Positions 8,271-10,962 of a stretch of DNA of 24,354 nt are shown here, one piece after another. The stretch is from the IMG/VR virus record IMGVR_UViG_3300020174_000072, positions 1 through 24,354 of that record; one strand, given 5' to 3'. A program made the translations under genes and the position numbers. Source of the DNA: a virus. How positions within the stretch are numbered: position 1 is the stretch's first letter; each line of letters starts with the position of its first letter. The notes under the pieces are model-generated. The model did not search any database. It worked only from the letters and a program-made list of their open reading frames with translations, and was not told the DNA's origin.

Positions 8271-8483
8271 TTGGATTCTGATGAGATTGCCAAACTCGTC
8301 GATGACATGGAAAAGGATGTAGGAGCCATAAGAGAAGAAAGTCTAAGGCTAACATGGTATATGAGGGGAGGACTCACATACACCGAAGCCATGCAACTAT
8401 CACCAGAGGAAAGAAGCACTGTTTCTAAAATTGTTAAAGACAATATGGAAACAACCAAAAAAACCAAAATGCCGTTCTTCTAG
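8271..8483 (+). CDS. 51: gp51-like baseplate hub assembly domain, probably made by frameshift
   Basis: The frame encodes about 70 residues: DSDEIAKLVDDMEKDV, LRLTWYMRGGLTYTEAMQLS and the C-terminal NMETTKKTKMPFF, which I recognise as the short gp51 (hub assembly catalyst) of marine T4-like phages. The only start near the beginning is TTG at 8271, with AAGG eleven bases upstream, a poor ribosome site; the first ATG (residue 13) would cut into the conserved part. The frame is open back to the slippery site at 8244, so the likelier product is a gp26-gp51 fusion made by -1 frameshift, like gpGT of lambda. The stop at 8481-8483 is followed almost at once by a host-type promoter. Separate translation from TTG remains possible. 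Confidence 0.8.
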   Translation: MDSDEIAKLVDDMEKDVGAIREESLRLTWYMRGGLTYTEAMQLSPEERSTVSKIVKDNMETTKKTKMPFF

Positions 8484-8491
8484 ACTAGATC

Positions 8492-8520
8492 TTGACAAAA
8501 TAATCAAAATATGCTATATT
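8492..8520 (+). promoter_or_regulatory. Near-consensus sigma70 promoter with extended -10
   Basis: TTGACA (8492-8497), a 17-base spacer and TATATT (8515-8520) preceded by TGC, the extended -10 element. Transcription should begin near 8527. It starts eight bases after the gp51 stop and drives the attenuator-like hairpin and the 77-residue gene. Confidence 0.85.
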
Positions 8521-8537
8521 ACTATGTAGGCTTGAGT

Positions 8538-8588
8538 AATAACCCAATATTATGAATGGCTGTAGTTATGCCAATTGGGGTATTTTTT
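8538..8588 (+). terminator. Attenuator-like terminator close behind the promoter
   Basis: AATAACCCAAT (8538-8548) pairs with ATTGGGGTATT (8574-8584) over ten of eleven positions, with one A-G mismatch, and is followed by T to 8588 (six T in a row at 8583-8588). An inner TGGC/GCCA pair (8557-8560 with 8570-8573) closes a nine-base loop. Transcription from the promoter at 8492 would give an RNA of about 60 bases ending here, with read-through needed to reach the 77-residue gene. Confidence 0.6.
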
Positions 8589-8631
8589 ATAACTATGTAG
8601 ATTATACTACGCTCAGAGTCTAAATAAAAGA

Positions 8632-8706
8632 ATGTTACGCTAAAAATGTAACATACTAGATCCAAGCAAGACTTGGAAATTTAAGATTAAGTTGAAATAC
8701 TTAATC
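8632..8706 (+). other. Chain of three leader hairpins
   Basis: Three perfect stems follow each other in the 5' leader of the 77-residue gene: ATGTTAC/GTAACAT (8632-8638 with 8648-8654), TCCAAG/CTTGGA (8661-8666 with 8672-8677) and GATTAAG/CTTAATC (8685-8691 with 8700-8706). They occupy most of the leader between the attenuator and the ribosome site. They may stabilise the message or bind a protein. Confidence 0.55.
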
Positions 8707-8713
8707 ACTTTTT

Positions 8714-8739
8714 AGGAGGTAATACTTATGAAAGTATTA
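8714..8739 (+). promoter_or_regulatory. Consensus ribosome site with start codon in a hairpin loop
   Basis: AGGAGGT (8714-8720) is a perfect ribosome site seven bases before ATG 8728. The bases TAATACTT (8720-8727) and AAGTATTA (8732-8739) form a perfect eight-base-pair stem with the loop ATGA, so the start codon sits in the loop. Opening the stem, or leaving it as a presented loop, would set translation of the 77-residue protein. Confidence 0.6.
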
Positions 8740-8961
8740 GAAAACGTAAAGAAGTGGGCTAAAGAGATTGCTCATTTAGCAGTGACTTTAATGGCAATGT
8801 TCATCGCTTTAGAAATTTTATTTGGCGGTAACACAGTACCATTTCTTCCAGGAACAGATGTAATTGGTTCTGTAACTGGCATCGTTAAATCACTAGGCAA
8901 CGAAGGCTTGGCTGGTTTAATCGCAGTATGGGTTTTATATACAATCTGGGAAAAGAAGTAA
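8728..8961 (+). CDS. 77-residue two-helix membrane protein of unknown function
   Basis: The protein begins with a short basic amphipathic stretch (MKVLENVKKWAKE), then a membrane segment at about residues 14-33 (IAHLAVTLMAMFIALEILFG), a Gly/Pro/Val-rich middle with PFLPGTDVIGSV, a second membrane segment at about 58-73 (GLAGLIAVWVLYTIW) and a basic end EKK. I do not recognise the family. Two membrane segments, small size and charged ends fit a holin or another small inner-membrane protein; a minor virion membrane-active protein is also possible. The gene stands alone, not in a lysis cassette. Its near-consensus promoter, perfect AGGAGGT site and strong terminator point to high expression, while the attenuator and start-codon hairpin point to control. 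No signal cleavage site is evident. Confidence 0.85.
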   Translation: MKVLENVKKWAKEIAHLAVTLMAMFIALEILFGGNTVPFLPGTDVIGSVTGIVKSLGNEGLAGLIAVWVLYTIWEKK

Positions 8962-8967
8962 CATTCT

Positions 8968-8979
8968 GAATCTAGAGTA
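8968..8979 (+). repeat. 12-base inverted repeat shared with the structured RNA
   Basis: GAATCTAGAGTA lies six bases after the 77-residue gene and again, on the other strand, at 9300-9289 inside the predicted minus-strand RNA. ACAT precedes both copies, with three extra bases in the first. Next to it, ACTAACTAAAA at 8982-8992 recurs in direct orientation at 9239-9249. Confidence 0.6.
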
Positions 8980-8988
8980 AAACTAACT

Positions 8989-9022
8989 AAAAAGGATCAT
9001 GAGGAAAGATGGTCCTTTTTTT
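8989..9022 (+). terminator. Strong intrinsic terminator, probably bidirectional
   Basis: AAAAAGGATCAT (8989-9000) pairs with ATGGTCCTTTTT (9009-9020) over twelve positions, including one T-G pair, around the loop GAGGAAAG, and is followed by more T. It ends the 77-residue gene message. On the minus strand the same stem has one A-C mismatch and a T run, so it can also end transcription coming from the structured RNA side. Confidence 0.85.
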
Positions 9023-9492
9023 ATGATCTGATTTTCTCCTAGAACATTAATGGGTTAAGTTAAGATGTCTTTGACATCTACTTCTTCGCTTTCGCTCGAA
9101 GTTCTTTTCTTTTAGTCTAATTAAGATTAGTTAACAGTGATACTTACTAACCCTATCGTGCATCATCCAGATATAAGTCATAATTCACCTATCCGCAGGC
9201 AAATTATAACCTAGTACATCATCCGAGTACTGCGTCATACTAACTAAAAGAGATTTCTTACGAACGGAAGCGGTCACCCGGTACTCCCTACTCTAGATTC
9301 ATGTGGCGGATGCTTGATAATCCCTAGTTAGCGAAATTACCTAAGCACGTAGGTTGCTTTTTCTCAGAGCCTACATCATTTAGCTTTTAAACTTATTTGC
9401 CTGGTGTCGTCCCGAGTACAAGTCTAGTCTTGTACGTTCCACGTGTTTTACACGATCTCCTCATAGGACACAGAATACATCTGCATCAGTGA
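9023..9492 (-). ncRNA. Candidate structured non-coding RNA (about 400-470 bases)
   Basis: There is no credible gene in this interval. Counted by line, 9181-9480 is about 42-45 percent GC against about 32 percent in the neighbouring gene. Many stems can be drawn on the minus strand: 9473-9467 with 9408-9401 (one bulge) enclosing CGTGT/ACACG (9454-9442) and GTACAAG/CTTGTAC (9435-9416); an eleven-pair stem with one bulged A, 9347-9336 with 9321-9311; GGGAG/CTTCC plus CGG/CCG closed by a GTGA tetraloop (9288-9266); AGTAC/GTACT (9231-9213); a GAAA-capped stem near 9098-9081; AGATGTC/GACATCT near 9079-9063. Several stems contain G-U pairs that would be C-A on the other strand, which favours minus. 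It follows the GIY-YIG gene with no visible promoter and runs toward the terminator at 8989-9022. I could not match it to tmRNA, RNase P RNA or a group I intron core. Confidence 0.6.
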
Positions 9493-9933
9493 CTAATTTA
9501 AATCTTCTTTTAATATGCCTTTGACTGAGCCTACGCCTAGTCTTATATTGATTATGCCGTTATAATTGTCTTCACGGAGTAACACATTCTCTTTAAACTG
9601 ATAATATGCCTCCATGTAATTTGTTATGCCTCTTGTTTTACATAAATGGATTATTTCGCGAGTGAATTTATCTGTGCCTAATTGTTCGATATCCTGTTTC
9701 AGCCGATCACTAGATCCCCAGTAGGTCTTCCAGTCCGTTTCTACAGTTTCTCGTCTTTTGTTTTTCTTGCCTTTGAGTGGCGGGCGTTTCTTTACTGTCC
9801 AGAAAAATTTCCGTCCAACATAGTCATGCCCGTTTGTGGAATTAGTAATACGATAAACAAAACCGTAGTTGTCCCCGATGTCTTCTGTATCAAAGACTTT
9901 TCCGTTATACTGCCAAGGGTTTTCGTACGACAA
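9493..9933 (-). CDS. GIY-YIG nuclease, small stand-alone type
   Basis: A 146-residue protein with the GIY-YIG nuclease core: GFVYRIT at residues 24-30, DYVGRKFFW at 37-45 with the conserved Arg41, a basic KGKKNKRRE loop, DWKTYWGSS, and Glu108 in YMEAYYQF as the likely metal-binding residue. These enzymes make single- or double-strand breaks in DNA. There is no extended DNA-binding domain as in T4 Seg homing endonucleases, so it may be a minimal nuclease; similar short proteins occur in marine T4-like phages. The start is TTG at 9933, with AAAGGAA upstream; no ATG suits. It follows the radical SAM gene by 15 bases and lies just upstream of the structured RNA. Whether it is a homing element or a resident repair nuclease cannot be told from sequence alone. 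Confidence 0.8.
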   Translation of the reverse strand: MSYENPWQYNGKVFDTEDIGDNYGFVYRITNSTNGHDYVGRKFFWTVKKRPPLKGKKNKRRETVETDWKTYWGSSDRLKQDIEQLGTDKFTREIIHLCKTRGITNYMEAYYQFKENVLLREDNYNGIINIRLGVGSVKGILKEDLN

Positions 9934-9948
9934 TGTGTTCCTTTCGAA

Positions 9949-10962
9949 TTACCATTCAGTTGCGTAGTCAAGATCGACTACTGACATATTACATTTAGTC
10001 TTACATTCCGTCCATGGGAAATTTTCAAACCGATTTTCCCAAAACGGATCTGCTAAGACTTCTGTAAGTCTATGTTTATTAAGATTAAAACTACTACCTA
10101 GTTCTAACCATTCATTGTTATGGTTGTACCTATTAGCGACCCAACAACAAGGAAATAAATGTCCTTGACTATTGAGAAATAAACCTTTGTTACCAATCTC
10201 ACATAAAGGTTTAACATCTTGATAGGTGTTAGAGTTTTTATATAATTCAACGTTGGTGTTGTAACCTATTTGACTAGGCTGTCTGCCTGATAAGTTACGA
10301 AGTTCACGTGTAAATCTATACTTATCACTGATGCCTAAATCGCTAGGTTGTAGTGGATCGTTTATAGGATAGATAGGATAAACTTTATTAAACTTTGTAC
10401 TGCGTGTTATTTGAAATTCATCAAAGCCTAATTTTCTTGCTTGTTGTTCCATAGAGTCTAACATTGATTCGTTAAACTTAAACACAATACAATCCCATGT
10501 CATGTAAACATCGCTGACCTGTCTTAATGTTTGTACACCAAGCATGATGCTATCCCAATTAGAATTTACTCTATATTGTTCATTACTATCTTGATCCCAC
10601 CCATCTAAACTAAAGTGTATGTGATCATTTTCATCTAACACTGCGCCAAGTTGAAACCACCAGTCTGCTTTTTTATAACTGCCATTGGTAACAATAACAA
10701 ACTTAACAGGTTTAATTGATTTAAAATATTCAATAACATCTATTAAGTCATGGGCATATATAGGATCGCCATCATCGCCGCAGAAAGTAATCTTTTCTAC
10801 ATTGTCTCTGATAAAGTCTGGAGTAAAGTTTTTTTTGAAAAAGTCTAGTCTAAGTTCAGTATTAACCAGCGTATCGGGTACTTCTTCTCTAGCACACCTA
10901 GAACACTTTAAAGTACACTTGCTAGATATCTCTATATGCCAATGCCAAGTTGCTAGTTTCAT
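9949..10962 (-). CDS. Radical SAM enzyme with SPASM-like C-terminus
   Basis: A 337-residue radical SAM protein. The iron-sulfur cluster motif is CTLKCSRC (C16, C20, C23), preceded by WHIEISSK. TFCGDDGDPIYA fits the strand that follows the first helix, VTNGS the next, and HFSLDGWDQ the later barrel strand. The C-terminal part has more cysteines: one near 254 (PLCEIG), a pair near 271-272 (FPCCW) and two near 319 and 323 (CKTKC), as in SPASM or twitch domains that bind extra clusters. Such enzymes usually modify peptides or RNA; the substrate here is unknown and no small precursor peptide gene is beside it. The ATG overlaps the gp46 stop by one base (TAATG), so it is translationally coupled to the recombination genes. 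Confidence 0.88.
   Translation of the reverse strand: MKLATWHWHIEISSKCTLKCSRCAREEVPDTLVNTELRLDFFKKNFTPDFIRDNVEKITFCGDDGDPIYAHDLIDVIEYFKSIKPVKFVIVTNGSYKKADWWFQLGAVLDENDHIHFSLDGWDQDSNEQYRVNSNWDSIMLGVQTLRQVSDVYMTWDCIVFKFNESMLDSMEQQARKLGFDEFQITRSTKFNKVYPIYPINDPLQPSDLGISDKYRFTRELRNLSGRQPSQIGYNTNVELYKNSNTYQDVKPLCEIGNKGLFLNSQGHLFPCCWVANRYNHNNEWLELGSSFNLNKHRLTEVLADPFWENRFENFPWTECKTKCNMSVVDLDYATEW

Follow-up and report, generated by a model that had tools for sequence, protein, structure and literature searches.

Large ornate RNAs are, to our knowledge, few, and we know of none from phages whose function is known. GOLLD and ROOL RNAs often lie near tRNA islands and form a homo-oligomeric RNA cage. As large ornate RNAs of phages and prophages, they represent the closest known kind (PMC12286853). 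Phage ICP1 carries a non-coding RNA of ~800 nt between gp139 and gp140 that is reported to be the most abundant ICP1 transcript (PMC7567579). Group I introns and the freestanding SegE-type GIY-YIG genes of T4-like phages offer a further comparison, in that a structured RNA adjoins a GIY-YIG gene.

The RNA described here was found in a 24,354-nt stretch of viral DNA (the window; IMG/VR record IMGVR_UViG_3300020174_000072, positions 1 to 24,354). Like GOLLD and ROOL, it is a large, multi-pseudoknotted, phage-encoded non-coding RNA, but it has no match to their Rfam covariance models, carries a duplicated unit with two identity-coupled strands (X1 and X2), and has no tRNA near it in the 24-kb window (ARAGORN, run on the window only). 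It resembles the ICP1 RNA in coming out of a gene-free gap, but the phage lineage and the location are different, and the two are set apart by description rather than by sequence. Unlike group I and group II introns, it matches no Rfam intron model, does not lie within a gene (the RNA follows a stop codon, and the preceding gene varies between loci) and can do without the GIY-YIG gene.

Searches of Rfam at gathering score gave no match for the 9023-9492 stretch of the window or for 11 relatives; searches of three relatives to E = 5 gave chance matches at most, and a search of window positions 8480-10000 to E = 10 gave just two chance matches near the terminator (E 1.2 and 8.3). tmRNA was rejected using ARAGORN, which also called no tRNA, and Rfam; RNase P RNA was rejected for want of a match to the Rfam RNase P models. 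A reading made from the sequence alone (the sequence-only reading) had been unable to fit the RNA to tmRNA, RNase P RNA, group I or group II cores, in agreement with the covariance search. No description of such an RNA in T4-like or jumbo phages was found in a literature search whose coverage excluded most preprints and subscription papers. The RNA class and its coupling rule are new; that phages carry large RNAs without an assigned function was already known.

Extent, strand and fold of the RNA

Positions 9023-9492 are gene-free, as the sequence-only reading had stated for about 470 bases. Those coordinates were nearly right, although the conserved RNA actually occupies 9063-9495 on the minus strand. 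Among homologues its similarity, delimited using blastn and MAFFT, extends from the GIY-YIG stop codon (9495) to the end of a terminal hairpin (9063). The locus is arranged as follows.

9063-9495, minus: whole conserved RNA, ~430 nt, delimited by blastn/MAFFT of homologues, with strand assigned from the minus-strand z of -3.82 and the asymmetry of G-U over A-C
9493-9933, minus: SegE-type GIY-YIG endonuclease gene (Pfam PF19835, E = 5e-39), a neighbour and not an obligate part
8994-9029, strand not assigned: terminator-like inverted repeat past the RNA 3' end (plus-strand match), bordered by T runs at one flank and by A runs at the opposite flank

To judge from its sequence, the terminator-like repeat probably faces both directions. 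No convincing promoter sequence was seen ahead of the window-family RNA, which begins right at the preceding gene's stop codon, so it may be a 3' UTR released by processing.

The minus strand folds better than 100 of 100 dinucleotide shuffles (z -3.82), and the plus strand only weakly so (z -1.60). Covarying pairs hold far more G-U than A-C cells (370 against 108 in the core, 29 against 0 in the 5' domain), which identifies the minus strand as the RNA strand, the same strand to which the sequence-only reading had been led by G-U pairs. The GC content, noted in that reading as higher than in the neighbouring sequence, exceeds that of the flanks in 90 of 101 homologous loci. Each of 102 RNAs has stops in all three of its forward frames, so this is not a protein gene. 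Several relatives show only modest fold energies relative to shuffles (z -0.5 to -4.5), and the argument is therefore carried by covariation rather than by energy.

Core statistics were obtained for 57 sequences and 57 named pairs, using as controls the same pairs with one partner slid by 1-3 columns and 500 shuffles. Core pairs were 84.9% paired, against 40-51% when slid, and contained 492 cells with two-sided changes, against 59-120 when slid; none of the 500 shuffles reached any of these measures. Across 34 sequences of the 5' domain, pairing held in 99.3% of cells, against 26-46% when slid, with 132 two-sided changes, and none of 500 shuffles matched either the pairing or the two-sided count. 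The elements of the fold, from 5' to 3', are listed below.

9406-9493, minus: 5' domain, with helices P1 (9491-9493/9406-9408), P2 (9481-9483/9471-9473), P3 (9465-9469/9409-9413), P4 (9451-9454/9442-9445) and P5 (9430-9435/9416-9421)
9349-9374, minus: helix P7, two-sided changes in all 5 outer pairs
9316-9341, minus: helix P8, two-sided changes in 9 of 9 pairs, covariation high-ranked; its loop (9325-9331) is strand 1 of PK1
9325-9331 (CUAACUA) with 9240-9246 (UAGUUAG), minus: pseudoknot PK1, 7 bp, two-sided changes in all 7
9304-9306 with P10 loop 9274-9276, minus: kissing pseudoknot PK2, two-sided changes in the window family
9291-9294/9249-9252, minus: helix P9, 100% paired, two pairs changed on both sides
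9284-9288/9266-9270, minus: helix P10, 100% paired, two pairs changed on both sides
9177-9210, minus: long hairpin H12 between the X strands, 85% paired, two-sided changes in 10 of 15 pairs
9080-9102, minus: 3' hairpin with GAGCG..AGCGA loop and a covarying stem (9098-9102/9080-9084)
9063-9079, minus: terminal hairpin AGAUGUC/GACAUCU, the RNA 3' end, a single stem position taking as many as 6 pair types; conservation stops here

PK1 joins the P8 loop to a strand ~80 nt downstream, which reads UAGUUAG in the window; elsewhere the two strands read CUUAACA/UGUUAAG or UCUAUUC/GAAUAGA, with 86-100% standard pairs (weighted) and up to 6 pair types at one position. In PK2, the letters after a conserved CCG pair with the P10 loop as CAC/GUG, CAG/CUG, UUGA/UCAA or UCAU/AUGA. 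Two stems proposed by the sequence-only reading showed compensatory changes when checked: 9266-9288 is P10, and 9311-9347 contains P8. Its two GNRA loops did not survive. The GTGA loop is really one side of the kissing pseudoknot and reads CUGA, UCAA, AUGA or GCAA elsewhere, changing with its partner, and the GAAA loop is not conserved. On this comparative evidence, 9063-9495 (minus) is a structured non-coding RNA gene, large (~430 nt) and multi-pseudoknotted.

The X1/X2 identity pair

The 3' half of the RNA contains the unit AUGAC-N5-AYYY-X twice, around the long hairpin. X is a 7-nt element, GGAUGAU in the window and GGAUAAU, AGAUAAA, AGAUGAU, AGAUAAU, AGAUGAA and others in relatives.

9218-9224, minus: element X1 (GGAUGAU), directly preceded by ACUC, identical to X2
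9162-9168, minus: element X2 (GGAUGAU), directly preceded by AUCU, identical to X1

Covariation in RNA nearly always means complementarity. X1 and X2 are instead identical in 101 of 102 aligned RNAs, in parallel register and not complementary, and the covariation of their identities (z 15-22) ranks with that of the best base pairs. When the X columns are left out of tree building, the resulting tree requires at least 42 changes of X; position 1 changes 20 times, position 5 changes 19 times and position 7 changes 12 times. An identity coupling that has come through at least 42 joint changes is a structural puzzle by itself, and we know of no other natural RNA in which two strands follow such a rule. 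Gene conversion is not a likely cause, because the letters before X1 and X2 (ACUC and AUCU) remain different. An antiparallel internal loop formed by X1 and X2 was rejected, as positions 1 and 7 vary independently. The complement of X is not in excess elsewhere within the RNA. Within the flanks, neither X (154 found, 135 expected) nor its complement (94 found, 118 expected) was enriched over the X of other phages, and X was rejected as an antisense seed on this comparison, which covers the flanks only. A 302-kb phage has two paralogues of the RNA with different X (AGAUGAA and GCAUGAA), each doubled faithfully, which favours a contact within the RNA or within its homo-oligomer rather than a single partner serving the whole genome.

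The second base after X1 and the first after X2 (window 9216 and 9161, minus) covary as U-G, C-A, U-A and A-U (z 13.5), and this covariation suggests that the two X strands end near one another in space. One arrangement, which we put forward tentatively and consider rather unlikely as it stands, is a direct parallel like-with-like contact (A-A, G-G, U-U, C-C) between X1 and X2, within or between molecules, with the duplicated unit forming a pseudo-two-fold. If true, this contact would give a naturally occurring RNA interface in which pairing follows identity.

Distribution, neighbouring genes and cultured relatives

RNA homologues were present in nearly 190 of the viral contigs examined, and in almost every case they lie between the gp46 and gp26 genes of phages related to T4. 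Using the GIY-YIG protein as query, 80 viral loci were collected, of which more than 70 contain the RNA (about 69-100% identical). A pattern made from the most conserved RNA segment retrieved at least 120 stretches, a few of them on contigs already counted, and all pattern-matched stretches listed gave a profile match to the RNA. Almost everywhere, including on contigs of 302 and 347 kb, gp55, gp47 and gp46 lie on one side and gp26 on the other. Covariance model R1, built from 57 diverse sequences, matched strongly in every one of 20 long contigs; a second match in one contig (G002) is a genuine paralogue (L228), and a second match on the opposite strand of another (G018) overlaps the RNA and was discarded as an artefact. 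Three loci (L087, L094 and L129) have the RNA and none of the window's proteins nearby, so the RNA occurs also at other places; the gene before it is there MazG-like, tail-fibre-like or another ORF. In bacterial genomes, the pattern matched five times and R1 backed none of these. By this sequence survey, well over a hundred phages, T4-related and giant ones, have retained the RNA.

Neighbouring genes were tallied at 155 loci with enough upstream DNA, absence being scored when the upstream DNA covered held no GIY-YIG gene. That gene lies less than 450 nt from the RNA core at 118 loci, further off at 23 and is absent at 14; another conserved ORF, a MazG-like gene or a tail-fibre-like gene may take its place. 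The GIY-YIG gene is thus a frequent neighbour of the RNA and not a required partner. An OMEGA-type RNA-guided nuclease was rejected on the same counts, as the linkage is not constant. In the window, a radical SAM/SPASM-like gene (9949-10962, minus), scoring slightly under Pfam cutoffs, lies between gp46 and the GIY-YIG gene, and it recurs at that place in many relatives.

Window-family RNAs gave no blastn match to isolate phages, and cultured relatives were reached solely via gp46 synteny. Among isolates, the nearest gp46 genes are those of PA5oct, Phosso, Atu_ph07 and the RaK2-like phages. In the RaK2-like records examined, ~800 bases, mostly unannotated, separate endonuclease VII from gp26 (RaK2's own gap is shorter), and these gaps align into one conserved structured RNA of ~600 nt (phages 121Q, GAP32, CBB and BF). 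Each RaK2-like genome has 4-5 dispersed copies by blastn, located in BF at about 30, 93, 174, 259 and 335 kb. The cultured phages with the RNA, in which it is mostly unannotated, infect E. coli, Salmonella, Serratia, Erwinia and Cronobacter; the record of phage Sharanji lists E. coli K-12 MG1655 as host. An RNA that is widespread in T4-related metagenome phages is thus also present, in 4-5 copies, in cultured ones, which makes the purpose of giant phage RNAs directly testable with a laboratory strain. In KY630187.1, NC_041878.1, NC_019401.1 and others, the copies are fairly evenly spread and all on one strand, and some records annotate small hypothetical ORFs over them.

The aligned RaK2-like copies have in common an upstream TGAAAC/TATAAT-type promoter sequence. 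It matches the 'second promoter' of CBB and GAP32, a TGAAACG/TATA motif near DNA-synthesis genes (PMC5259590). Across 30 RaK2-like copies, the PK2 kissing helix and P10 are 100% paired, with two-sided changes in 4 of 4 PK2 pairs, and the set repeats the R1-hairpin-R2 layout, its identity-coupled positions being offset by ~55 around a hairpin. (A GGATGAT..CCAGATGAA similarity first noticed in the CBB gap proved to be an ordinary stem and not X.) Model R1 gave weak core matches to several RaK2-like records at the same place and strand. Model R2, built from RaK2-like copies only, matched the window core at 13.6 bits (E 0.22) and the cores of relatives more strongly (E 3e-4 to 0.02), and 8 of its best 9 matches lay in the core. 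Based on these reciprocal core matches, the same PK2 and P10, and the shared R1-hairpin-R2 layout, the window RNA and the RaK2-like RNAs are taken as one superfamily, the single scores being weak and consistent in place and strand.

The gaps between gp46 and gp26 of PA5oct and Phosso hold no convincing genes and have folds much stronger than those of shuffles (z -6.87 and -4.66, respectively); neither R1 nor R2 matched at either syntenic gap, and both gaps are candidates for the superfamily. In PA5oct (L209, 9149-10500), a TTGACA-17-TATAAT sequence lies ahead of the ~1-kb structured gap (z -6.87), and ORFs gp338-gp339 inside it may be spurious.

Possible functions

The RNA probably represents a phage RNA gene, located between gp46 and gp26 and present in 4-5 copies in some lineages, whose product would act in trans as a pre-folded scaffold. 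Its transcription would fall in the middle phase of infection, and the scaffold, an RNA-only assembly or an RNP, would be of the general GOLLD/ROOL kind; both scaffold function and oligomerisation we infer by analogy with these RNAs. A trans-acting scaffold is the best guess for an RNA that is large and pseudoknotted, occurs in several autonomous copies and is tied to no fixed neighbour. The duplicated unit would bring X1 next to X2, either touching it directly or bound with it to a common partner, and through this placement selection would keep them identical.

It is possible, without being likely, that the RNA instead binds one phage or host partner (a protein, or an RNA by pairing) at both X1 and X2, as a sponge or guide, with X tracking that partner. 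Two identical, fast-varying strands in like contexts are what such binding would leave, but the flank counts for X and its complement, and the lack of excess of the complement within the RNA, speak against a pairing partner; at least 42 changes of X would each need a third molecule to change as well, and the two paralogues of one genome differ in X. An unlikely reading assigns the RNA to the gp47-gp46-(GIY-YIG) operon as a structured 3' UTR or cis element that acts on mRNA stability or on control of the preceding genes. The start of the window-family RNA at a stop codon, its position on the gp55-gp47-gp46 strand and the terminator-like repeat behind it would fit. The preceding gene is interchangeable, however, and in RaK2-like phages the syntenic copy is preceded by a gene on the opposite strand while copies elsewhere carry their own promoter sequence; known stabilising 3' ends are also far smaller and less elaborate than this RNA.

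The sequence-only reading had suggested a phage regulatory RNA, which is possible, or a mobile RNA-nuclease pair, in which RNA and GIY-YIG enzyme would act or spread jointly, intron-like or RNA-guided. For the pair, the proximity of the gene at 118 of 155 loci and the annotation of related families as homing endonucleases are in keeping, but at 37 of the 155 loci the enzyme gene is absent or further off, the RaK2-like copies examined have none adjoining, no intron family matches and the gp46-gp26 location is stable, which makes the pair highly improbable. We regard as equally improbable an element acting at the DNA level (a replication origin or packaging signal that would need to fold while single-stranded): the fairly even spacing of the RaK2-like copies, as in BF, and the recombination genes adjoining the syntenic copy would suit it, but the pairs tolerate G-U far more than A-C, and the copies all have the same orientation, behind a promoter sequence.

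On the plus strand of the window, beside the RNA locus, positions 8492-8590 contain a strong promoter-like site (TTGACA, 17, TATATT, with TG ahead of it), followed by a hairpin and T run at ~8543-8588 and then a leader before a 77-aa ORF; the site with its hairpin and T run is possibly a small RNA or an attenuator. The ORF (8728-8961, plus) encodes a hydrophobic protein without a Pfam or PHROG match, and it recurs by the RNA in the close relatives L083, L105, L109, L123, L134, L154 and L190.
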